This document shows positions 9,141 to 23,708 of a DNA stretch of 64,000 nt, in pieces. The stretch's first letter is position 1, and the number at the start of each line of letters is the position of its first letter. The position numbers were made by a program, and so were the translations under genes. The notes beneath the pieces were generated by a model. The model made no database searches and had not been told where the DNA came from. It saw only the letters and a list, made by a program, of their open reading frames with translations. This DNA comes from Halorubrum rubrum (lineage in GTDB: Archaea; Halobacteriota; Halobacteria; Halobacteriales; Haloferacaceae): contig NZ_JANHDM010000001.1 of NCBI RefSeq assembly GCF_024494685.1, positions 186,001 to 250,000 on the forward strand, read 5' to 3'.

Positions 9141-9258
9141 TGCGGCGAGGTAGCCGTGTCGCCGGCTTAAGGATTGTCAAGCGGGGACGGCGAGGGCGGA
9201 GATATCCGGAGGTTCCCCCATGGAAAACAGTTTAGGACCGTCCGAGAGTCCACCCGCC

Positions 9259-11070
9259 ATGAAGGTCCACGTCGGGTCGGCGGCGACGCCCGAGGAGGCC
9301 GAGGCGATCGCCCGATCGCTCGCGGCGCACCTCGGCGTCGGCGTCGAGGTCCACCTCGGGGAGAGCGGGGAGCCCGCGGCGAGCGCCGATCCCCCGGAGA
9401 CGGCCTATCCCCTCGAGGACGATCTCGGACCGACCGACCGGGAGCGGGACCTCCGAGCGGAGATCGCGGACGTCCGGGAGGGCGGCCCCGCGAAGTACCG
9501 CGAGCGGCTCGAAGAGCAGGGGAAGCTGTTCGTCCGCGACCGGCTCGACCTCTGGTTCGGCGGCGAGGGGGGAACGCGCGGCGCGGGCGATCCGAGCTCC
9601 TCGGACGACGGCCCCGTCGGGATTCGCTTCGAGGACGGCACGTTCGCCGCGTTCGACGACTGGCACCCGAACGCGCCGGACCACAGCGGAGACGAGGCGT
9701 CCGAAGGAACGGACGACCGCCTCCCGGCGGACGGCCTCCTGACCGGGGGCGCGGAGTTCGAGGGACGCGACGTCCACTTCATGGCCAACGACTTCACCGT
9801 GAAGGCGGGATCGATGGCGGCGAGGGGCGTCGAGAAGTTCCTCCGGATGCAACAGCGCGCGCTGAAGACGGGCAACCCCGTCCTCTACCTGATGGACTCC
9901 TCGGGCGGGCGGATCGACCGGCAGTCCGGCTTCTTCGCCAACCGCGAGGGGATCGGGAAGTACTACTACAACCACTCGATGCTGTCGGGGGCGGTCCCGC
10001 AGATCTGCGTGCTCTACGGGCCGTGTATCGCCGGGGCGGCCTACACCCCCGTCTTCGCCGACTTCACCGTCATGGTCGAGGGCGTCTCCGCGATGGCGAT
10101 CGCCTCCCCGCGGATGGTCGAGATGGTCACCGGCGAGGAGGTCGATCTGGAGACGCTCGGGGGACCGCGGCTCCACGCCGAGGAGTCGGGATCGGCAGAC
10201 CTGATCGCTCGCGACGAGGAACACGCCCGCGAGCTCGTCGCCGACCTGATCGCCTACCTCCCGGACCGGGCCGGCGAGAAGCCGCCGCGCGCGGAGCCGA
10301 AGCCGCCGAAGTTCTCTCCCGAGGGGATCGACGAGCTGATCCCCGAGTCGCCCACCCGCCCGTACGACGTGCGCGACCTCCTCGACCGGATCGCGGACGC
10401 GGAGTCCGTCTTCGAGCTGCGGTCGGGGTACGGCTCCGAGATACTCACCGCGTTCTGTCGGATCGACGGGCGACCCGTGGGCGTCGTCGCCAACCAGCCG
10501 ACGGAGCGGGCCGGGGCGATCTTCCCCGACGCCGCCGAGAAGGCCGCGGAGTTCGTCTGGACCTGTGACGCCTACGAGATCCCGCTTCTGTACCTCTGTG
10601 ACACGCCGGGGTTCATGGCCGGCTCGCAGGTCGAGCGGGACGGCATCCTGGAGAAGGGAAAGAAGCTGATCTACGCCACGTCGTCGGCGACGGTCCCGAA
10701 ACAGACCGTCGTCGTCCGGAAGGCGTACGGCGCGGGGATCTACGCGATGGGCGGCCCCGCCTACGACCCCGAGAGCACCATCGGGCTCCCCTCCGGCGAG
10801 ATCGCGATCATGGGACCGGAGGCCGCGATAAACGCCGTCTACGCCCGGAAGCTGGCCGAGATCGACGACCCCGAGGAGCGCGCGGCCGAGGAAGCGCGGC
10901 TCCGCGAGGAGTACCGCGAGGAGATCGACGTCCACCGGATGGCGAGCGAGGTCGTCATCGACGAGATCGTCCCGCCCTCGGACCTCCGCGCCCAGCTCGC
11001 CGCCCGCTTCGACTTCTACGAGGACGTGAAGAAGGACCTCCCCGAGAAGAAACACGGGACGGTGCTGTGA
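9259..11070 (+). CDS. Acyl-CoA carboxylase carboxyltransferase (beta) subunit
   Basis: A 603-residue carboxyltransferase of the acetyl/propionyl/methylcrotonyl-CoA carboxylase family, which moves CO2 from biotin to an acyl-CoA. The N-lobe contains FTVKAGSMAARGVEKFLRMQ, MDSSGGRIDRQSGFF and a GPCIAGAAYTPVF oxyanion-type segment. The C-lobe has LLYLCDTPGFMAGSQ and KAYGAGIYAMGGPAYDPE. There is an extra N-terminal region of about 90 residues before the carboxyltransferase core. An in-frame ATG at 9220 exists, but the MKVHVGSA start is preceded by aaaacagttta at TATA distance. No biotin carboxylase or biotin carrier gene is beside it, so it must use subunits encoded elsewhere. The exact acyl-CoA is not evident. 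Confidence 0.9.
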   Translation: MKVHVGSAATPEEAEAIARSLAAHLGVGVEVHLGESGEPAASADPPETAYPLEDDLGPTDRERDLRAEIADVREGGPAKYRERLEEQGKLFVRDRLDLWFGGEGGTRGAGDPSSSDDGPVGIRFEDGTFAAFDDWHPNAPDHSGDEASEGTDDRLPADGLLTGGAEFEGRDVHFMANDFTVKAGSMAARGVEKFLRMQQRALKTGNPVLYLMDSSGGRIDRQSGFFANREGIGKYYYNHSMLSGAVPQICVLYGPCIAGAAYTPVFADFTVMVEGVSAMAIASPRMVEMVTGEEVDLETLGGPRLHAEESGSADLIARDEEHARELVADLIAYLPDRAGEKPPRAEPKPPKFSPEGIDELIPESPTRPYDVRDLLDRIADAESVFELRSGYGSEILTAFCRIDGRPVGVVANQPTERAGAIFPDAAEKAAEFVWTCDAYEIPLLYLCDTPGFMAGSQVERDGILEKGKKLIYATSSATVPKQTVVVRKAYGAGIYAMGGPAYDPESTIGLPSGEIAIMGPEAAINAVYARKLAEIDDPEERAAEEARLREEYREEIDVHRMASEVVIDEIVPPSDLRAQLAARFDFYEDVKKDLPEKKHGTVL

Positions 11071-13600: not shown

Positions 13601-13671
13601 TGCACCGGCCGAGATTTGAACTCGGGTTGCAACCATGGCAAGGTTGCGTGATACCACTACACTACCGGTGC
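13601..13671 (-). tRNA. tRNA-Gly (anticodon GCC)
   Basis: A 71-nt cloverleaf read from the minus strand: acceptor GCACCGG pairs with CCGGTGC plus discriminator A. The D arm contains GTAGTGTAGTGG, the anticodon arm is CAACC-TTGCCAT-GGTTG with GCC, and the T arm carries GAGTTCAAATCTC. No CCA is encoded and no intron is present. The gene is isolated. Confidence 0.97.
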
Positions 13672-13714: not shown

Positions 13715-14056
13715 TCACATTCCCGGCTCCGTGAGATCGATCGTCACCGACTCGGTCGACAGGTCGTAGAGGTTCATCTCGCGTCCCTTCGTCGAGTAGC
13801 GCACTCCGACGGGCGTGATGAGGTCGACGCGCTGGAGCCGGCGCAGGTGGTAGGTGACCGCCTGAAGCGAGACGTCGAGTTCGTCGGCGATCTCGGAGGG
13901 CGTCGACGGCGACTCGCGGACGACGGCGATCACCTCGCGGGCGGTCGCCGACGCGAGAACCTCGAGGAGCGCGTCGGATCCCTCGAGCGAGGCGGTCCGG
14001 CGGTCCCGGTCGGCGTCGGACGTCGTCGGCGGCGGGGAGAGCTGTTCGAGCGTCAT
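13715..14056 (-). CDS. ArsR-like winged-helix transcriptional regulator
   Basis: A 113-residue DNA-binding protein. The wHTH core runs from SDALLEVLASATAREVIAVV through SEIADELDVSLQAVTYHLRR (recognition helix) to a wing with GVRYSTKGREMNLYDL. No metal-binding Cys or His set is visible, so it is not a classical metal sensor. It lies divergently from the CARF-like regulator gene with a 249-bp intergenic region between them. Typical haloarchaeal members act on nearby genes or themselves; the target here is unknown. Confidence 0.85.
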   Translation of the reverse strand: MTLEQLSPPPTTSDADRDRRTASLEGSDALLEVLASATAREVIAVVRESPSTPSEIADELDVSLQAVTYHLRRLQRVDLITPVGVRYSTKGREMNLYDLSTESVTIDLTEPGM

Positions 14057-14305
14057 CGTCGGAGATCGGTGAGGGGCGATCGGCGGGCCGCGACGCCTCC
14101 GTCGTCGACTGAGGCGTCGGCGGGAGCGTGGGAGGGCCGTCGGTCGAGGGGGAACCGCTCGTTCGGCTGATCGTTCACTCTCGATGAAGCGAGCATCGGC
14201 TCTCTGAAGCGACGGGATGCGGCCGCATAGGTATTATGTCGTCACAAACGTCACGATCGACTGTATCGGCACAACAATCAATACCTGCGGCCCGTATCCG
14301 CGAAC

Positions 14306-15064
14306 ATGGCGGAACTAGACGCACCGAGACGGGTCCACGTCGTCCCGCTCGGGTACGAGAAGGACCGCATCGTGGAGCCGGTCGTCGACGCCGACGCCGA
14401 CGAGGCGCTCTTCCTCGAGCCGAACCCCGACGACGAGGGCGTCGACCGGCCGGCCTACCACGAGGAAGTCAGAGAGCGAATTCGGGCGGCCGGGATCCGG
14501 ACGGAGACGATCGAGTGTGACATCTTCGACCTGTACAGCTCGCTGGGGACGATCGCGGAGGTGGCAAACCGGTTCCGCGAACACAGCGTCTACGTCAACC
14601 TCGCGTCCGGCTCGAAGGTGACCGCGATCGGCGGGATGATCGCGTGTATGGCGACAGGAGCCGTCCCGTACTACGTGCGCGCGGAGACGTACGCGGGCGG
14701 CGAGGATCGACCGGTCGCCTCGGGCGCGAAACCGCCGGAGACGCTCCCGAAGTACCACATCGAGGAGCCGAAGCGCGAACACGTCGCGGTCCTCGGCCAC
14801 GTCGAGCGCGAGGGGTCCGTCACGAAGCGAGAGCTCATCGAGTACGGCCGTCGCGAGGGGCTCCCGTTCGTGGATCGGTACGACGCTGAGGGCGTCCAGA
14901 ACCCCGACCGGGGGTACTACCGCCGGCTCAACGCGCGGATCGTCGACCCGCTCCGGAGCCGCGGGTTCATCGAGATCGAGGAACACTCCAAGTACCAGTA
15001 CGTCTCGGTCACGGAGAGCGGCGAGAACCACCTCCAAGCGTTCGGATACCTCCTCGAGGAGTGA
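14306..15064 (+). CDS. CARF-like domain / winged-helix regulator (HFX_2341/DUF6293-type)
   Basis: A 252-residue protein. Residues 1-140 form a Rossmann-like domain beginning RRVHVVPLGYEKDRIVEPV, with CDIFDLYSSLGTI and the loop VNLASGSKVTAIGGMIACMA, which resembles the nucleotide-binding motif of CARF domains in CRISPR-associated regulators. Residues about 160-252 are a winged helix (VTKRELIEYGRREG, then a basic helix with YYRRLNARIVDPL). The set-up matches the haloarchaeal HFX_2341-like family. The expected role is a transcription factor whose DNA binding responds to a cyclic oligonucleotide or other nucleotide; this is inferred from the family, not shown. No cas genes are nearby. Confidence 0.85.
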   Translation: MAELDAPRRVHVVPLGYEKDRIVEPVVDADADEALFLEPNPDDEGVDRPAYHEEVRERIRAAGIRTETIECDIFDLYSSLGTIAEVANRFREHSVYVNLASGSKVTAIGGMIACMATGAVPYYVRAETYAGGEDRPVASGAKPPETLPKYHIEEPKREHVAVLGHVEREGSVTKRELIEYGRREGLPFVDRYDAEGVQNPDRGYYRRLNARIVDPLRSRGFIEIEEHSKYQYVSVTESGENHLQAFGYLLEE

Positions 15065-15140
15065 GCGGGGAGCTCGGGCCACCACTCCGCGATCCGCGAC
15101 CCCCGTCAGCCCTATGTCGCTCTCGTGCCGAGGGGACCGC

Positions 15141-16289
15141 ATGGGGATCCATGACACGCTCTCGGCGGCCCTCGACCGGCTCGAGCCGCCGGAGCGGCTC
15201 GTCGACTGGTCGCTCCTCGCCGTCGTGCTCGCGGAGACGGCCACCGGACTGGTCTCGTTCACCGTCGGAACGCCCGCCGGCTGGCCGGTCTTCTGGCTCC
15301 ACCGCGCGCTCGGGCTCGCGATCGTCGTCCTGCTCGGCTGGAAGCTCGCCCGCGTGCGTCACCGCCTGACCGACCGGACGCTGTGGCGGCCGTCGACCGC
15401 CCTCTCGGTCCTCACGCTCGTCGCCGCGGTCGGGACGGTCTCGACGGGGGTCGTCTGGGTGTTCGGGCTCGACGTCCGGCTCTCCTACTGGACGCTGCTG
15501 TCCGTCCACGTCGGCTTCGGGCTGGCGCTCGTCCCCCTCGTCGCCGCCCACGCCTCGACCCGGTTCCGGCCGCCGAGGCGGGTCGACTTCGAGGGGCGGC
15601 GGACCGCGATCCAGTACGGAGCGTTGTTGATCGCGGGCGCGGTCGTCTACCGGCTCCAGCAGGGCGCGAACCGGCTGCTCTCGACGCCCGGCGCGGACCG
15701 CCGGTTCACGGGCTCTCAGCCGCGTGAGGGTGAGGGGAACGGCGCGTTCCCGGTCACCTCCTGGGTCGCCGACGACCCGGACCCGATCGACCGGGCGAGC
15801 TACCGGCTCTCGGTGAGCGGGCTCGTCGCGGAGCCGCGGGAGTTCGCCACGGACGACCTCGAGCGCGTCGGCGGCGACGAGACCTCGGCGTTGCTCGACT
15901 GTACGAGCGGCTGGTACACGGTCCAGGAGTGGGGCGGCGTGCGGGTCGGCGACCTGATCGCGGCGGCCGGCGGCGTGGAGGGGAACGGCCGGGCGGAGGG
16001 GGACGACGGGGTGGAGGGAGGCGACGGGGCGGAGGACGACGAGCGGTACGTCCGGTTCGTCTCCGTCACGGGGTACCGGTGGACGCTCCCGCTCGCGGAG
16101 GCCGAGGACGCGCTGCTCGCGACCCACGTCGGCGGCGACCGACTCGCGCACGGCCACGGCGCGCCCGTTCGGCTCGTCGCGCCCGGCCGTCGAGGGTTCC
16201 AGTGGGTGAAGTGGGTGACCCGGATCGAGGTCCGTTCCGAGCGCGACCCCGCGCAGTGGATCGTCACGCTGGTGAGCGGGTTCGACTGA
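15141..16289 (+). CDS. Membrane-anchored molybdopterin-dependent oxidoreductase (SUOX/YedY-type with cytochrome-b-like N-terminus)
   Basis: A 382-residue fusion. Residues 20-175 hold four or five membrane helices with candidate haem-ligand histidines (His54, His74, His123, His137), like a cytochrome b561-type domain. Residues 195-382 form a sulfite-oxidase-fold molybdopterin domain: LLDCTSGWYTVQEWGGV contains the expected molybdenum-ligand Cys254, followed by GVRVGDLI and GFQWVKWVTRIEV at the end. A Gly/Glu-rich insertion lies near residues 275-300. Substrate unknown; the fused membrane part suggests electron exchange with the quinone pool. The start is the ATG at 15141 because it begins the first helical region; another ATG is nine codons upstream. 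Confidence 0.85.
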   Translation: MGIHDTLSAALDRLEPPERLVDWSLLAVVLAETATGLVSFTVGTPAGWPVFWLHRALGLAIVVLLGWKLARVRHRLTDRTLWRPSTALSVLTLVAAVGTVSTGVVWVFGLDVRLSYWTLLSVHVGFGLALVPLVAAHASTRFRPPRRVDFEGRRTAIQYGALLIAGAVVYRLQQGANRLLSTPGADRRFTGSQPREGEGNGAFPVTSWVADDPDPIDRASYRLSVSGLVAEPREFATDDLERVGGDETSALLDCTSGWYTVQEWGGVRVGDLIAAAGGVEGNGRAEGDDGVEGGDGAEDDERYVRFVSVTGYRWTLPLAEAEDALLATHVGGDRLAHGHGAPVRLVAPGRRGFQWVKWVTRIEVRSERDPAQWIVTLVSGFD

Positions 16290-16709: not shown

Positions 16710-17060
16710 AGAACGGTTGTTTTGGTGGAGATTGAGGTGAGTAGAAGAGGATCGTTGCTGGCGCGGTGAACGCCGGCAAAGCCCCAACGCCGAGAACTCG
16801 GGGACCTCGCTGTGGTCCTCAGTCGCTCACTGCGTTCGCTCCCTGCGGTCCTTGCGTCGGCCGCCGTCGCCCCCGGCGTTGCCCCTTTGAGTCCCACCCC
16901 ACCCCGCACAGCCCCACACCTCACGCCTCCCCAGCCTCGCGGCTCGCTATCGAGGTGCTCGTTTCACTCGCACCTCGCTCGCCGCGTCCCTCGCGGGCTC
17001 CTCGCGAGCCGATGGCTCGCTCGGAGGCGCGCCACCGCAGGATCGCTCGTTCACCCCCCT
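16710..17060 (-). repeat. Dispersed intergenic repeat, copy D
   Basis: On the minus strand: ggtggcgcgcctccgagcg, cgcgagggacgcgg, ggctggggaggcgtgagg, gggactcaaaggggca, a gagcgaacgcagtgagcga-type region, ggggctttgccggcgttcac and agcaacgatcc. The 357-bp element follows within 75 bases of the ggggctttg block. The sequence on the far side of the element (gaaacgcccggtacaggtct at about 16329-16350) may be the displaced outer end of this repeat. Together, element and repeat fill the 956-bp gap 16290-17245. Confidence 0.75.
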
Positions 17061-17245
17061 GTCTTGACTACAACCACTCCGAACCGTCCCACGCGCCGAG
17101 GACGTCGGCGAGGGTAACTGGACGATCGACGACCGATCGATCCCGAAACCTCCGGATAGCCCCGTGTGAACGCTCCACAGCCCGGAAACCGGACCGCTAT
17201 CCTTTTAGTCCGTCGTCCGGAATCACGGGGTACAGTCTCGCCACG

Positions 17246-18112
17246 ATGCGCACCGAGGACGGACTCACGATCTGTGTCCCGTCCTCGGTCGTCCGGGAAG
17301 CCGAGGACGATCGCGAGGCGACTCGCAAACTCGGCTACGTCGCCCGCGCGGCGGCGGTGTTCCGGGCGGACCGGCTCGTCGTCTTCCCCGACAGGGAGGG
17401 CGAACGACGCCGGGGCGGGGAGTACGTCCGCGCCGTGCTGGGGTACGCCGCGACGCCCCCGGAGCTCCGAAAGGACCTCTGGGGCGAACGCGAGGAGCTC
17501 CGGTACGTCGGCGTGCTGCCGCCGCTGCGCGTGCCGTGGCGGACCGGCTCGGCCCCGAACGGGGACGAGTCGACAACACAGGGACTCGTGACCGAGGTCG
17601 GACCTGAAGGCCGCGTCCGGGTCAATTCCCCGCTGGGGGAACACCCGATCTCCCTGCTCGTCCCCTCCGGAATGGAGGTCGAGCGAGGAGAGCGCGTCAC
17701 CATCAGGGTCTCTTCGAGAGAACCGGTCCGCGCCCGCATCACCGGGAAGCCGGAGGTCGGCTTCCAGGTCGTGGAAGCGGACCTGTCGGAAGCGCTCGCC
17801 GCCGACGACGTCGCCGTCGCCACGTCGCGACACGGGGAGGAACTCTCCGTCTCGCGGCTCGGCGACCTCGTCGTCGACGCGCGGGAGGCCGGCGGATACA
17901 CCGTCGCCTTCGGCGCACCGGAACGGGGGCTTCCGGAGATGCTCGGGCTCTCACCCGAGGACGTTCGGGCGGCCGTCGCCGACGGCCGCCGAGTCGAACC
18001 CGATCCGGGGTTCGACCTCTGGCTGAACACGATCCCGGCACAGGGCAGCGGGGTAGTCCGAACGGAGGAGGCTCTGTTCGCGACCCTCGGCTCGCTCACA
18101 CTCACGGAGTAA
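17246..18112 (+). CDS. SPOUT-superfamily RNA methyltransferase (ribosomal operon leader gene)
   Basis: A 288-residue protein of the archaeal SPOUT class annotated as putative RNA uridine methyltransferase, regularly found just before rpl3. N-terminal ICVPSSVVREAEDDREATRK and LGYVARAAAVFRADRLVVFPD form the knotted Rossmann part. An inserted OB-like segment (about residues 110-165) interrupts it, and FGAPERGLPEML with FDLWLNTIPAQGSGVVRTEEA completes the cofactor pocket. The start is ATG 17246; a longer open frame upstream runs through the repeat and is not coding. The TATA-like ctatccttttag lies about 35 bases before the ATG, making this the probable first gene of the super-operon. Confidence 0.85.
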   Translation: MRTEDGLTICVPSSVVREAEDDREATRKLGYVARAAAVFRADRLVVFPDREGERRRGGEYVRAVLGYAATPPELRKDLWGEREELRYVGVLPPLRVPWRTGSAPNGDESTTQGLVTEVGPEGRVRVNSPLGEHPISLLVPSGMEVERGERVTIRVSSREPVRARITGKPEVGFQVVEADLSEALAADDVAVATSRHGEELSVSRLGDLVVDAREAGGYTVAFGAPERGLPEMLGLSPEDVRAAVADGRRVEPDPGFDLWLNTIPAQGSGVVRTEEALFATLGSLTLTE

Positions 18113-18116
18113 ACAC

Positions 18117-19133
18117 ATGCCACAACCAAGCCGACCACGAAAAGGCTCGCTGGGCTACGGCCCACGCACCCGCGCGGACAGCGAGGTACCGCGCATCCGC
18201 TCGTGGCCAGACGACGACGGGGCGCCCGCACTACAGGGCTTCGCCGGCTACAAGGCCGGAATGACCCACGTCATGATGGTCAACGACGAGGCGGACTCGC
18301 CGCGTGAGGGGATGGAGGAGTCCGTCCCCGTCACGGTGGTGGAGACGCCGCCGATGCACGCCGTCGCCGTGCGAGCCTACGAGGAGACGCCGTACGGACA
18401 GAAGCCGGTTGCCGAGGTCTGGGCGACCGAGTTCCACGAGGAGCTCGACCGCGCGCTCGACCTGCCGGCGGAGGACACCTTCGAGGAGGACCGAACGGAG
18501 CTCGAGGAGCTGCTGGAGGAGGACGTGATCGACGACGTTCGCGTCATCACCCACACCAGCCCCTCGGAGCTCGCGAACGTACCGAAGAAGAACCCCGACG
18601 TGATGGAGACGCGCGTCGGCGGCGGTTCCCTCGAGGAGCGCGCCGACTTCGCGCTCGAGCTCGTCGCGGACGGCGGTGCCCACGAGTTCGGCGACGTCTT
18701 CCGCGCCGGACAGTACACCGACGTCTCCGGCGTCACGAAGGGGAAGGGGACGCAGGGTCCCGTCAAGCGCTGGGGCGTACAGAAGCGGAAGGGCAAACAC
18801 GCCCGCCAGGGATGGCGGCGTCGGATCGGCAACCTCGGTCCGTGGAACCCCTCCCGCGTTCGCTCCACCGTTCCCCAGCAGGGCCAGACCGGCTACCACC
18901 AGCGCACCGAGCTCAACAAGCGCCTCATCGACTTCGGCGAGGGCGACGACGCCTCCGTCGACGGCGGCTTCGTCAACTACGGCGAGGTCGACGGCGAGTA
19001 CGCGCTCATCAAGGGCTCGCTACCGGGGCCGAACAAGCGCCTGCTGCGCTTCCGCCCGGCCATCCGGCCGAACGACCAGCCGCGCCTCGACCCCGAGGTC
19101 CGGTACGTATCCACCGCATCCAACCAGGGATAA
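18117..19133 (+). CDS. rpl3: 50S ribosomal protein L3 (uL3)
   Basis: 338 residues, archaeal/eukaryotic length. The N-terminus MPQPSRPRKGSLGYGPRTRA and the segment FAGYKAGMTHVMMV are diagnostic. TKGKGTQGPVKRWGVQKRKG is the loop that reaches the peptidyl-transferase centre, and GNLGPWNPSRV follows. It starts five bases after the SPOUT gene stop and three bases before rpl4. The protein is acidic outside the rRNA-binding loop, the usual halophilic adaptation. Confidence 0.98.
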   Translation: MPQPSRPRKGSLGYGPRTRADSEVPRIRSWPDDDGAPALQGFAGYKAGMTHVMMVNDEADSPREGMEESVPVTVVETPPMHAVAVRAYEETPYGQKPVAEVWATEFHEELDRALDLPAEDTFEEDRTELEELLEEDVIDDVRVITHTSPSELANVPKKNPDVMETRVGGGSLEERADFALELVADGGAHEFGDVFRAGQYTDVSGVTKGKGTQGPVKRWGVQKRKGKHARQGWRRRIGNLGPWNPSRVRSTVPQQGQTGYHQRTELNKRLIDFGEGDDASVDGGFVNYGEVDGEYALIKGSLPGPNKRLLRFRPAIRPNDQPRLDPEVRYVSTASNQG

Positions 19134-19136
19134 TCC

Positions 19137-19883
19137 ATGAACACGACAGTACACGACCTGGACGGCGGGGACGCGGGCAGCGTCGAGCTGCCGGCGATCT
19201 TCGAGACCGCGTTCCGACCGGACCTCATCGGTCGGGCGGTCAGCGCCGCACAGGCTAACCGGAAACAGGCCTACGGGGCCGACGAGTTCGCCGGACTGCG
19301 AACCCCCGCGGAGTCGTTCGGCTCCGGACGTGGGCTCGCCCACGTTCCGCGCTCCGAGAACGTCGCCCGCCGCGTCCCGCACGCGGTGTCGGGCCGCGCC
19401 GCACACCCCCCGAAGGCCGAGAAGGACCAGACGAAGAAACTGAACGACAAGGAGCGCCAGCTCGCGGTTCGGTCGGCCATCGCCGCCACCGCGGACGCGG
19501 AGCTCGTCGCCGAGCGCGGTCACGCGTTCGACGAGGACCTCGACCTCCCGCTCGTCGTGAGCGACGAGTTCGAGGACCTACAGAAGACCCAGGAGGCCCT
19601 CGGCGTTCTCGAGGCCCTCGGCGTCGACGCCGACGTCGAGCGCGCCGACGAGGGGCGCTCCGTCCGCGCGGGTCGCGGGAAGACCCGCGGTCGCAAGTAC
19701 AGCCAGCCGAAGTCCGTGCTCGTCGTCACGAGCGAGGAGCCGTCGCGCGCCGCTCGCAACCTCGCGGGCGTCGACGTCGCGACCGCTGGCGAGGTCAACG
19801 CGGAGGACCTCGCGCCCGGCACGCATCCGGGTCGGCTCACGCTGTGGACCGAGTCGGCGATCGAGGAGGTGGCCGACCGATGA
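19137..19883 (+). CDS. rpl4: 50S ribosomal protein L4 (uL4)
   Basis: 248 residues. The segment VSAAQANRKQAYGADEFAGL and the extended loop with SFGSGRGLAHVPR are the universal L4 features that line the exit tunnel. The C-terminal globular part includes VDVATAGEVNAEDLAPG. The stop overlaps the rpl23 start (ATGA). Length and order fit the archaeal S10 cluster. Confidence 0.98.
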   Translation: MNTTVHDLDGGDAGSVELPAIFETAFRPDLIGRAVSAAQANRKQAYGADEFAGLRTPAESFGSGRGLAHVPRSENVARRVPHAVSGRAAHPPKAEKDQTKKLNDKERQLAVRSAIAATADAELVAERGHAFDEDLDLPLVVSDEFEDLQKTQEALGVLEALGVDADVERADEGRSVRAGRGKTRGRKYSQPKSVLVVTSEEPSRAARNLAGVDVATAGEVNAEDLAPGTHPGRLTLWTESAIEEVADR

Positions 19884-20134
19884 GCTCGCTCATCGAACAC
19901 CCGCTCGTGACCGAGCAGGCGATGAACGAGATGGACTTCAAGAACAAGCTGCTGTTCTTGGTCGACATCGACGCGACGAAACCGGAGATCCGCGACGAGG
20001 TCTCCGAACGGTACGACGTCACCGTCACCGACGTGAACACGCAGGTGACGTCGAAGGGCAAAAAGAAGGCGACGGTCACGCTCTCCGAGGACGACGACGC
20101 GACCGACGTCGCCTCCCGGATCGGGGTGTTCTGA
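19880..20134 (+). CDS. rpl23: 50S ribosomal protein L23 (uL23)
   Basis: 84 residues starting MSSLIEHPLVTEQAMNEMD at an ATG that overlaps the rpl4 stop by four bases, which decides the start over an in-frame upstream codon. It contains KNKLLFLVDIDATKPEI and the KGKKKATVTL strand. It forms part of the tunnel-exit docking site for SRP and the SecY channel. Confidence 0.97.
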   Translation: MSSLIEHPLVTEQAMNEMDFKNKLLFLVDIDATKPEIRDEVSERYDVTVTDVNTQVTSKGKKKATVTLSEDDDATDVASRIGVF

Positions 20135-20136
20135 CG

Positions 20137-20859
20137 ATGGGACGACGAATCCAAGGACAGCGGCGAGGACGCGGCGGCCCGACGTTCCGGGCCCCGTCCC
20201 ACCGCTACAAGGCGGAACTGTCGCACAAGACGCTCGAGGACACCGACCTGATCACCGGCGAGATCGTCGGGATCGAACACGACCCGGCGCGTTCCGCGCC
20301 GCTCGCGGAGGTCGAGTTCGACGACGACGACCGGCGGCTCGTGCTCGCGCCGGAGGGCGTTCGCGTGGGCGAGACGATCCAGGTCGGCGTCTCGGCGGAG
20401 ATCAAGCCGGGGAACACGCTTCCGCTCGCGGAGATCCCCGAGGGAGTCCCCGTCTGTAACGTCGAGAGCAACCGCGGCGACGGCGGGAAGTTCGCCCGCG
20501 CCTCGGGCGTCTCGGCGACGCTTCTCACCCACGACCGCGACGTCGCGGTCGTCCAGCTTCCCAGCGGGGAAGTCAAGCGGCTCGACCCGCAGTGTCGCGC
20601 CACGATCGGCGTGGTCGCGGGCGGCGGTCGGACGGAGAAACCCTTCGTCAAGGCCGGCAACAAGTACCACAAGATGCAAGCACGCGGGACGAAGTACCCG
20701 CGCGTTCGCGGCGTCGCGATGAACGCCGTTGACCACCCCTTCGGCGGGGGCGGTCGCCAACACCCCGGCCAGCCGAAGTCGGTCTCGCGGGACGCCCCGC
20801 CGGGACGCAAGGTCGGTGACATCGCATCCAAACGGACCGGACGAGGTAGCAACAAATGA
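20137..20859 (+). CDS. rpl2: 50S ribosomal protein L2 (uL2)
   Basis: 240 residues. [20 protein letters not shown] is the archaeal N-terminus, and the C-terminal region contains [16 protein letters not shown] with the conserved His important for peptidyl transfer and subunit joining. It is two bases after rpl23 and overlaps rps19 by four bases. Confidence 0.98.
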
Positions 20860-21281
20860 GTTCCGAATACCGCACCGGCCGCGAGGGCGAGGAGTTCGCC
20901 TACCGCGGTCACTCGCTCGACGAGCTGCAGGAGATGGACGTAGAGGAGGTCGCGGAACTGCTCCCCGCACGCCAGCGGCGAAGCATCACCCGAGGGCTGA
21001 GCGTCGAGAAGGAGAAGCTCCTCGAGAAGGCTCGAAGTCGCGACAAGGAGACGACCGCCGACGACCCGATCCGGACGCATCTGCGCGACATGCCGATCCT
21101 TCCGGAGTTCGTCGGCGTCACGTTTGCCGTGTACAACGGTCACAGCTTCGAGCGCGTCCAGGTCGAACCCGAGATGATCGGCCACTACCTGGGCGAGTTC
21201 CACCAGACGCGAAGCACCGTCGAACACGGTCAGGCCGGCATCGGCGCGACCCGGTCCTCGAAGTTCGTGCCCCTCAAATAA
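20856..21281 (+). CDS. rps19: 30S ribosomal protein S19 (uS19)
   Basis: 141 residues, the long archaeal form. An N-terminal extension ([20 protein letters not shown]) precedes the core with [37 protein letters not shown] and the basic C-terminal tail [11 protein letters not shown]. It contacts S13 and tRNA in the 30S head. ATGA overlap with rpl2. Confidence 0.98.
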
Positions 21282-21284
21282 TCC

Positions 21285-21749
21285 ATGGGAATCAACTATA
21301 GCGTCGAGGCCGACCCGGAGACCACCGCCAAGGGGATGCTCCGCGACCGGCCCATCAGCGTGAAGGACAGCAAGGAGATCTCCAGGGAGATCAAAGGCGA
21401 GACGGTCGCCGACGCCGAGGAGTTCCTCCGGGCGGTAATCGACGAGGAGACCTCGGTACCGATGCGCCAGCACAACGCCGGCGCGGGCCACCGCTCCGAC
21501 ATCGACGGCTGGGACGCGGGTCGATACCCCGCGAAGGCCGCCAAGGACTTCCTGAAGCTCCTCGAGAACGTCAGCAACAACGCCGACGAGCAGGGGTTCG
21601 ACGGCGAGGAGATGGTGATCAAACACGTCGCTCCCCACAAGGTGGGCGAGCGACCCGGTCGGAACCCGCGCGCGGCGGGGGCCACGCAGTGGAACACCAC
21701 GCTCGCGGACGTCGAACTGATCATCGAGGAGCCGGAGGCTGAGAACTAA
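21285..21749 (+). CDS. rpl22: 50S ribosomal protein L22 (uL22)
   Basis: 154 residues starting [20 protein letters not shown]. The hairpin that lines the exit tunnel corresponds to [20 protein letters not shown] near residue 120. The C-terminus [12 protein letters not shown] overlaps the rps3 start by one base (taatg). Confidence 0.97.
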
Positions 21750-22699
21750 TGGCTGACGAACACCAATTCATCGAGGACGGCCTTCGCCGTTCACAGATCA
21801 ACGAGTTCTTCGCGGACGAGCTCGGCCGAGCCGGCTACGGCGGCATGGACGTCGCCAAGACGCCGATGGGCACGCAGATCGTCCTGAAAGCGGAGAAGCC
21901 CGGCATGGTGATCGGGAAAGGCGGGAAGAACATCCGAAAGATCACCACCGAGCTGGAAGAGCGGTTCGACATGGACGACCCGCAGATCGACGTTCAGGAG
22001 GTCGACGAGCCCGACCTGAACGCCCAGATCGTCGCGGACCGGCTCGCGAACGCCCTCGAACGCGGCTGGTACTTCCGGAAGGCGGGCCACACCACGATCG
22101 ACCGGATCATGGACGCCGGCGCGCTCGGCGCGGAGATCGTGCTGAGCGGGAAGGTCACCGGGGCGCGATCGCGCGTCGAGAAGTTCAATCGCGGCTACAT
22201 CAAACACAACGGCGAGCCCGCGGAGGAGGTCGTCGACCACGGCAAGGGAGTCGCGGTGATGAAGCTCGGCACCATCGGGGTCAACGTCAAGATCATCCCG
22301 CCGGGCGCGAAGCTGCCCGACGACTTCGGCGTCCGCGAGGACGCCGAGGTGCCCGAGGTCGACCAGGCCGACGCGGCCGGCGACGAGGGCGTCGAGTCGC
22401 TCCTCGAGGAGGAGCCCGAGGAGGTCCCGGACGTGGGAGCCGACGACGACGACGTCGACGTCCCGGACGACGATCCGGCGGACGTCATCGACGAGGAGAT
22501 CGTCGAGGAGGTCGTCGAGGAGACGGGCGAGACCGCGACGGAGGCGACCGACGCCCGCGCGGAGGAGCCGGGCGAGACCGGCGACGTCGACGAGGAGTCG
22601 GAGGAGCTCGACGAGCTCGACGAGGAGATCGAATCGGAGGCGGCCGACCTGGTCGCCGAGATGGAAGAAGCCGACGAGGAAGCCGAGGAGGACGAGTAA
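21749..22699 (+). CDS. rps3: 30S ribosomal protein S3 (uS3) with long acidic tail
   Basis: 316 residues. Residues 1-200 are the normal S3 with a type-II KH domain ([24 protein letters not shown] loop) and the C-terminal domain around [12 protein letters not shown]. Residues about 205-316 form an extended, almost purely acidic tail (repeated EE/ED/DD with few hydrophobics). Such tails are common on haloarchaeal S3 but this one is long, more than a third of the protein. Confidence 0.97.
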
Positions 22700-22700
22700 C

Positions 22701-22913
22701 ATGGCGATCCTCTACACCGACGAGATCCGCGACATGACCGCGGCGGAGCGGGAGGTCGAACTCGAGGAGCTCGAGACCGAACTCCTCAACACGAAGGCAC
22801 AGCAGGCGGCCGGCGGGATGCCCGAGAGCCCCGGCCGGGTGAACGAGCTGAAGAAGACGATCGCCCGGATCAAGACGATCCAGGCGGAAGAAGGCGACTT
22901 CGACGACGAATAA
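22701..22913 (+). CDS. rpl29: 50S ribosomal protein L29 (uL29)
   Basis: 70 residues, two long helices: [19 protein letters not shown] and [20 protein letters not shown]. Near the tunnel exit in the 50S subunit. One base after rps3, one base before rnp1. Confidence 0.95.
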
Positions 22914-22914
22914 G

Positions 22915-23373
22915 ATGATCTCCCCCGAAACCCTCGCACGGCACGAACTCGTCGGCCTCCCGGTTCGGGTGGCCGACGCCGACAGCGATGCCCACGTCGG
23001 GATCGCCGGTCGCGTGCTGTTCGAGACGGAACGCACCCTCGTGGTGCGGACCGGACGGGGGGAGAAACCGAAGGACAAACGCGTGCCCAAATCGGGCACG
23101 ACCTTCGAGTTCGCGGTCGTCGAGACGGCGACCGCACGCACAGATGAAGCCGCCGACGACGGCCAGTCGTCGGGGTCCGCGTCCCAACTCGGGTCGGATA
23201 CTGCGGGGGTCCGCCCCCGTCAGTCCGGCCCGTCCGCGGCCGGCGCACGGAGCGCCGACGCGGCGAGCCGGCGAGGCGAGTGCAAAGACGCGGTCTACGT
23301 AACGGTGGATGGCACGCGGCTGCGGGACCGGCCCGCCGAACGCACCGAACGAGGTGTCTCACAATGGCGATAG
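22915..23373 (+). CDS. rnp1: Ribonuclease P protein component 1 (Rpp29/Pop4 family) with insertion
   Basis: 152 residues. The Sm-like core of archaeal Rpp29 is split: the first part runs from TLARHELVGLPVRVADADS to GTTFEFAVVETATA, and the last strand is DAVYVTVDGTRLRDRPAERT. Between them, residues about 72-122 are a Ser/Gly/Ala/Arg-rich low-complexity insertion. The family is usually shorter. The protein supports RNase P RNA in 5' maturation of tRNA. Its place between L29 and S17 is the standard archaeal order. The end overlaps the rps17 start by ten bases. Confidence 0.9.
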   Translation: MISPETLARHELVGLPVRVADADSDAHVGIAGRVLFETERTLVVRTGRGEKPKDKRVPKSGTTFEFAVVETATARTDEAADDGQSSGSASQLGSDTAGVRPRQSGPSAAGARSADAASRRGECKDAVYVTVDGTRLRDRPAERTERGVSQWR

Positions 23374-23708
23374 GAATCGACGTACCCATGCCTCCGGAGC
23401 CAGACGACCCGGAGGATTACGACTACGAGAAGTGTCCGTTTTACGGACAGCTTCCCGTCCGCGGCCAGCTCCGAGAGGGGACGGTCGTGTCGACGGATAT
23501 GGAAAAGACCGTCATCGTCGAGCGAGAATACGACGTGTTCGTACCGAAATACGACCGGTACATGAAGCGTCGGTCGCGCATCCCGGCACACGTGCCGGGC
23601 GTGCTCGACTCGCTCGAGGAAGGTGACGAAGTGACGATCGCGGAGACGCGGCCGCTCTCGAAGACGAAATCACACGTCGTCGTCGAGAACCTGTCGGGTG
23701 ATGCGTGA
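23364..23708 (+). CDS. rps17: 30S ribosomal protein S17 (uS17)
   Basis: 114 residues from [13 protein letters not shown]. It includes [39 protein letters not shown] and [16 protein letters not shown], an OB-fold primary rRNA binder. Start 23364 is chosen because the earlier in-frame codons lie within rnp1. Its stop overlaps the rpl14 start. Confidence 0.97.

Follow-up and report, generated by a model that had tools for sequence, protein, structure and literature searches.

Does a transcription factor with a CARF sensor, standing away from genes of any CRISPR (clustered regularly interspaced short palindromic repeats) system, still read a CRISPR signal, or does it answer to another one? This question is raised by a gene in a stretch of 64,000 nucleotides of Halorubrum rubrum DNA (contig NZ_JANHDM010000001.1, positions 186,001 to 250,000), which is called the window below and to which the feature coordinates refer. 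The source genome comprises 3.2 Mb in 25 contigs and is 98% complete, and among named organisms the gene has its nearest relatives in Halorubrum species, with identities up to 96%. The results point, with a probability of roughly 0.6, to a dimeric regulator of the DUF6293/HFX_2341 family, in which a nucleotide-type signal of chromosomal origin would shift the winged helices on DNA and which would regulate itself through a dyad in front of its own gene. The gene and its two domains are as follows.

14306..15064, forward strand: CARF-winged-helix regulator of 252 amino acids, ATG start (HFX_2341_N and DUF6293_C matches, AlphaFold model, PADLOC)
14327..14692, forward strand: N-terminal CARF (Rossmann-like) sensor domain, residues 8-129 (Pfam 9-129; structure match, model residues 8-149)
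14753..15055, forward strand: C-terminal winged-helix DNA-binding domain, residues 150-250 (PF22665 147-246; structure match to STIV F93)

Pfam search assigned PF19810 (HFX_2341_N) to residues 9-129 (E-value 2.8e-41, 141.2 bits, cut-off 30) and the winged helix PF22665 (DUF6293_C) to residues 147-246 (9.2e-30, 103.5 bits, cut-off 27). PF22662 (Csa3_N) was also matched over residues 10-118, its 30.8 bits (cut-off 27) being far below the strength of the PF19810 match, and the NCBIfam model for Csa3, TIGR01884, gave 33.5 bits, below its cut-off of 60.2. The PADLOC group model PDLC01847 (CARF3--CARF) matched the protein with 302 bits and a 281-aa (amino acid) paralogue with 283 bits. The window protein is a CARF and winged-helix regulator, and its gene is another member of a family which is already named in Pfam and PADLOC and whose founder, HFX_2341, was studied experimentally in 2024. 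The impression of an unrecognised protein, given by an earlier reading made from the sequence alone, is not supported.

With a single sequence or a profile, no meaningful direct match to a solved structure was obtained, and for this reason a fold comparison was needed. The AlphaFold input was an alignment of 27 rows, namely the window protein and 26 of 28 relative loci; locus L026, whose open reading frame (ORF) equals that of L025 in length and position, and L030, which is truncated, were omitted. The model reached a predicted local distance difference test (pLDDT) score of 84.2 and a predicted template modelling (pTM) score of 0.77. Nearly all of the 50 Foldseek matches listed were of CARF type (ring nuclease Sis0811, Csa3 with cyclic tetraadenylate (cA4), Csm6, Cam1, Can2), with a halohydrin dehalogenase in row 49 as a non-CARF match. 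Comparison by VIA superposed model residues 8-149 on the CARF domain of Can2 (Z 15.0, 121 aa, root mean square deviation (rmsd) 2.2), with Z of 14.7 for Cam1 and 14.5 for Csm6, and residues 150-252 on the winged helix of STIV F93 (2co5; Z 11.1, 87 aa, rmsd 2.6). The Rossmann-like CARF fold was thus recovered. HHalign against a profile of 19 Csa3-type proteins aligned both domains (99.1%, E 8.4e-19); these proteins were gathered from a phylum search and include one truncated (L081) and two divergent members (L090, L091) that branch apart in the tree. Pfam, the model, both structure comparisons and the Csa3 profile all agree with the order of CARF-like sensor and winged helix which the sequence-only reading had proposed. 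The string SGSKVTAIGG, on which that reading had leaned, occupies residues 101-110, after the strand 94-98 and running into the helix 104-117 of the model.

The possible nature of the ligand was approached through two loops.

14345..14368, forward strand: motif 1, residues 14-21 PLGYEKDR, counterpart of the cA4-binding motif 1 of Csa3 (aligned to GFN/GFD of Csa3)
14597..14617, forward strand: motif 2, residues 98-104 NLASGSK, beta4-alpha4 loop and presumed pocket floor (aligned to SLSGGAR of Csa3)

For Csa3, motif 1 is described as hydrophobic8-G9-F10-(N/D)11-x-hydrophilic13-F14 and motif 2 as small94-small/hydrophobic95-G96-hydrophobic97-R98; cA4 binding is lost in the F10A and F14A variants, and G96 and R98 touch the cA4 phosphates (PMC8844856). 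The two motifs align on L15-G16-Y17-E18-K19-D20-R21 and A100-S101-G102-S103-K104 of the window protein. P14, G16, E18, R21, N98, G102 and S103 are identical in 27/27 rows and K104 is found in 25, the other two, both Halohasta proteins, carrying Thr. The glycine and small positions are kept in the family and F10 is represented by Tyr or Phe, but the revised cA4 motifs are broken at N/D11 (Glu), F14 (Arg), hydrophobic 97 (Ser) and R98 (Lys). Since haloarchaeal Csa3 proteins likewise do without F14, having Ser or Arg there, R21 alone is weak evidence against cA4. Of the CARF motif (D/N)-X-(S/T)-X3-(R/K), cited from the same paper, N98 (27/27) and K104 (25/27) fit, and position 100 is Ala in 24/27 rows. 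By alignment, much of the phosphate-binding loop is kept, yet E18, R21, S103 and K104 depart from the published Csa3 motif.

Conservation is distributed unevenly over the protein. Among 17 distant rows, several of them near copies and all unweighted, the two loop regions were most like the window protein, with identities of 63.4% (residues 11-24) and 84.2% (residues 93-124), whereas residues 25-92 reached 40.4% and the winged helix 40.5%; residues 97-123 hold 18 of the 40 invariant columns of the whole alignment. Conservation of the presumed pocket loops so far above that of the DNA-binding domain suggests a fixed, CRISPR-independent ligand, and our own reading of the contrast is that a single ligand may be combined with many different operators. 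The orientation of these loops towards a pocket is presumed by analogy with Csa3. The departures at E18 and S103 would also suit a CARF domain which serves as a dimerisation platform only, or whose ligand is an ordinary metabolite or the end of a linear RNA, in the way that RtcR binds tRNA fragments. This is quite unlikely, however: with N98, G102 and S103 invariant and K104 in 25/27 rows, much of the phosphate-binding loop is preserved, and in Csa3 the corresponding G96 and R98 touch cA4 phosphates.

The remark that no CRISPR system was in sight holds inside the window and fails for the genome. A type I-D CRISPR-Cas locus (L060, C11:98000-117900) is located about 82-93 kb upstream of the window gene (C11:200306-201061), on the same contig. 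It contains cas1 (C11:109742-110557), near which a repeat family of 33 copies and cas2, cas4 and the type I-D Cas3', all above their cut-offs, were found. For Cas1 the best-scoring model was that of type I-D Cas1d, with 378 bits just below the cut-off of 385 and well above the general Cas1 cut-off; Csc1-like and Cas6-like proteins nearby fell below their cut-offs, while an 810-aa protein was assigned as Cas10d by PADLOC (1270 bits). A true Csa3 (77.6 bits, above cut-off) is encoded at C11:118148-118753, within L092 (C11:117600-120500), about 82 kb from the window gene. The genome thus carries at least three CARF-HTH genes, namely this Csa3, the window gene and the 281-aa paralogue (30% identical, near C11:352 kb), and the window gene is a paralogue separate from the true Csa3. 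The true Csa3 also stands without an obvious source of cyclic oligoadenylate (cOA), as no Cas10 palm match was obtained in the genome.

Homology to Csa3 and a type I-D system on the same contig would be expected if the window protein were a Csa3-like CRISPR regulator that senses cOA and controls this locus from a distance, and over-expression of HFX_2341 is reported to repress cas genes, lowering their mRNA (PMC11434293). Such a role is nevertheless very unlikely here. The type I-D locus has its own adjoining Csa3 with 77.6 bits, against 33.5 bits for the window protein at a cut-off of 60.2; four cA4-motif positions differ (E18, R21 and S103 in 27/27 rows, K104 in 25/27), although R21 counts little; and, as given below, cas1 is present in only 2/15 window-clade genomes and the Cas10 palm model found no match.

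PF19810 matches occur in 165/170 genomes of the host's family, 164 of them above cut-off. The window clade, delimited by at least 75% identity over most of the protein, is present in 15 of 167 genomes; a further metagenome-assembled genome (G133) with a PF19810 match in the 170-genome search lies outside the 167. One orthologue (G126, C1:2940137-2940888) is split into two frames, covering residues 1-63 and 62-251, by gene decay or a sequencing error. Of the 167 genomes, 50 carry cas1: 2/15 with the window-clade gene and 48/152 of the others (p 0.24), or 2/15 and 8/34 within the genus (p 0.70). The window-clade gene is not enriched in cas1 genomes. In a wider set of short-form relatives, hand-chosen by bit scores and compared by statistics that ignore relatedness, cas1 occurs in 5/40 genomes against 45/127 others (p 0.005), which was not used as evidence of avoidance.

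The Cas10 palm model (PF22335) matched 0/167 family genomes, the own genome included, and it also missed the Cas10d of the own genome, so that a divergent type III Cas10 may be missed. No cas genes were present among 20 neighbour proteins typed as a sample from the related loci and the window. These results and the lack of cas1 enrichment support the earlier suggestion of a regulator without CRISPR neighbourhood that could sense a nucleotide unrelated to CRISPR. cOA from a type III system is unlikely as the signal here. A cyclase of the cyclic oligonucleotide-based antiphage signalling system (CBASS) was rejected as the signal source as well: the SMODS domain was found in 33/167 family genomes at E <= 0.001 (23 above cut-off), among them 2/15 window-clade genomes (G105, G132), and not in the own genome.

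The DAC (diadenylate-cyclase) domain, on the other hand, was present in 167/167 family genomes, 165 of them above cut-off. The regulator could therefore be a specific sensor of cyclic di-adenosine monophosphate (c-di-AMP), the product of a DacZ-type diadenylate cyclase, and tune transport and metabolism to the salt or osmotic state. In H. volcanii, c-di-AMP is reported to be essential and to have a link with osmohomeostasis (PMC6741144); it has been put forward as a candidate signal of HFX_2341 (PMC11434293), and the pocket of Csa3 was initially proposed to accommodate cyclic-dinucleotide-like signals (PMC8699464). As DAC occurs in every genome and the window-type gene is patchy, co-occurrence cannot discriminate; the universal DAC makes c-di-AMP available without singling it out, and this specific assignment is considered unlikely.

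Within its family the window gene belongs to a branch of its own. The tree, a quick one of 70 rows hand-picked from all fetched, has several long deep branches and a weak root (63), which its own checks flagged. It places the gene among the 42 rows of a DUF6293 group (96) and, more narrowly, in a 7-row Halorubrum clade (100). A form of about 300 aa (L061-L071), which accounts for part of the PF19810 matches, is widespread across genera with short branches and carries a S-S/A-M-P-R loop in place of SGSK (four proteins); together with L073 it forms a clade of 10 rows with a Shimodaira-Hasegawa-like approximate likelihood ratio test (SH-aLRT) support of 99. In the own genome this form was not found by a search made without positive control, and no virus-borne relatives were found in viral contigs.

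The region upstream of the gene contains a possible site of action of the regulator.

14262..14274, forward strand: imperfect operator-like dyad TGTATCGGCACAA, candidate autoregulatory site (palindromes upstream of family genes)
14277..14283, forward strand: TATA-like ATCAATA, about 26 bases before the ATG at 14306 (by eye)

Palindromic pairs are over-represented upstream of 18 family genes, the best sums (114) being those of GTCG-N7-CGAC and TGTC-N2-GACA, followed by TGTG-N2/N4-CACA (111). In the Halorubrum and Halosimplex/Halomicrobium groups the dyad is situated, by eye, directly before an AT-rich TATA-like stretch. This arrangement fits autoregulation.

The mechanism that we propose combines these elements. 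Acting as a dimer, this CARF-winged-helix regulator of the DUF6293/HFX_2341 family would probably bind, in its sensor pocket, a nucleotide-type signal that comes from chromosomal enzymes of the cell and not from a type III CRISPR complex. Ligand binding would shift the winged helices on DNA, and the regulator probably occupies the dyad before its own start codon, by which it would regulate itself. The CARF and winged helix-turn-helix (wHTH) architecture, the homology to Csa3, the conservation of the loops, the lack of a detectable Cas10 cyclase and the separation from cas genes carry this reading.

Several points weigh against it. The contig of the window gene also carries a CRISPR-Cas system, and HFX_2341 affects cas mRNA in H. 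mediterranei (PMC11434293), so a role in cas control is possible; the missed Cas10d described above belongs here too. Whole-chain Foldseek template modelling (TM) scores were low, with query TM of 0.33-0.50, since the target either holds its two domains in another pose or lacks one of them: single domains match, not the pair in one pose. As to the dyad, 0 of 300 mononucleotide shuffles reached the best sum and none went above 106, but these shuffles take account of neither relatedness nor dinucleotides, and the window's copy of the dyad is imperfect. A genome-wide search with the gene's own promoter dyad, allowing one mismatch, gave 4 sites, fewer than the 6 of the backward control; it lends no support to a regulon, and naming a regulon by the dyad was rejected.

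The genes next to the regulator were considered as possible partners.

13601..13671, reverse strand: tRNA-Gly (gcc), context
13715..14056, reverse strand: small regulator of ArsR/HTH_20 type, divergent (HTH_20 3.9e-12)
15114..16289, forward strand: molybdopterin-binding oxidoreductase with a hydrophobic N-terminal part by eye, start codon as called (PF00174 1.4e-27)

The divergent ArsR-like gene and the molybdoenzyme that had been described as neighbours are indeed there, whereas the tRNA does not adjoin the regulator, the ArsR-like gene standing between the two. Gene calls in the relatives' loci come from a rough heuristic that includes ORFs on the wrong strand. With these calls, the ArsR-like gene accompanies the regulator in 6/28 loci (L003-L008) and the molybdoenzyme in 5/28 by long matches, with a 90-aa piece in L008. 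As all of these loci belong to the closest group, both genes say little on function; they are limited to the group upstream of ribosomal protein genes, and a dedicated partner gene was rejected. Unrelated neighbours stand in other loci, including a methylmalonyl-CoA mutase, an alcohol dehydrogenase and an E1/E2 gene pair.

An apparent ribosomal protein superoperon, recognised by eye at 16766-23708 of the window, follows a few kb downstream of the regulator, and this synteny is shared by L003-L008 and not by L009-L011. In L019 a methylmalonyl-CoA mutase (typed) lies directly downstream of the CARF gene, followed by a glyoxalase-family gene, and L017 is alike by similarity; in the window an acyl-CoA carboxyltransferase is encoded at 9220-11070, about 3 kb upstream of the regulator. 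The recurrence of propionate-pathway neighbours in L017, L019 and the window is possibly due to chance. Closely similar copies of the regulator in several genera (L025-L028 and L030, of which L026 and L030 are named plasmids) stand beside genes for ThiF (E1-like) and Prok-E2_E proteins. On the opposite side of these CARF genes an integrase-like gene is found; all these neighbours were typed in L028 and recognised by similarity in the others. These loci possibly represent a mobile ubiquitin-like module with a CARF regulator.

From Halorubrum to Halosimplex, and in plasmid-borne copies too, the E18/R21/S103 loops stay the same, whereas the DNA-binding half diverges. A broader proposal, which we regard as tentative and on the doubtful side, is that the DUF6293 CARF regulators act as receptors for a nucleotide messenger of chromosomal origin that is independent of CRISPR, most plausibly c-di-AMP. 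The CARF-wHTH switch would then serve archaea as a general signalling device, with CRISPR Csa3 as one of its uses, and the invariant loops would mark receptor specificity. Should c-di-AMP or another non-CRISPR nucleotide be the ligand, a transcription-factor receptor for an essential archaeal messenger would be at hand and the workings of CARF sensors outside immunity would become visible; a limited literature search returned no such receptor. At present the gene stands as one more branch of a family that had been named, and in part studied, before. To this the analysis adds that the branch lies apart from the widespread form of about 300 aa, that its presumed pocket loops are unusually conserved and that no cOA synthase was detected in the host.

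Among known systems, HFX_2341 (Crr) is the nearest. A 2024 publication describes it as a global regulator that is similar to Csa3, a resemblance found by HHpred, and that also occurs in CRISPR-free haloarchaea; its deletion has broad effects on the transcriptome, including many transport and metabolism genes, with no significant change of cas genes by RNA sequencing and modest rises by quantitative PCR (PMC11434293). The window protein shares with it both Pfam domains above cut-off and the standing of a haloarchaeal Csa3-like regulator away from CRISPR loci. It differs in its length of 252 aa, against 308, and in a branch separate from the clade of about 300 aa, which we presume to hold the orthologues of HFX_2341 because of that length and of the more than 72% identity to the Halobacterium homologue given in the same source. 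The published HFX_2341 knock-out primer pattern was found in 0/167 genomes. In the literature search no description of the window gene's own subfamily was found.

With Csa3 the window protein shares CARF and wHTH domains alignable over their length, and G16/Y17 and G102/K104 in the frame of the cA4 motifs. It differs by scoring below the TIGR01884 cut-off, by lying away from cas genes and by E18, R21, S103 and K104 in place of N/D, F, a hydrophobic residue and R. The PADLOC group CARF3--CARF includes the protein and its paralogue, so such proteins were already catalogued, but its model PDLC01847 carries no function. RtcR resembles the window protein in a CARF domain that controls transcription outside CRISPR and differs in architecture, being a sigma54 AAA+ activator with a divergent CARF domain that binds tRNA fragments (PMC7790460). 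Abundant CARF homologues outside CRISPR-Cas systems are noted in the 2025 CRISPR classification (PMC12669027), and the idea that was drawn from the sequence alone is of the right kind and had, for the family, been published before.
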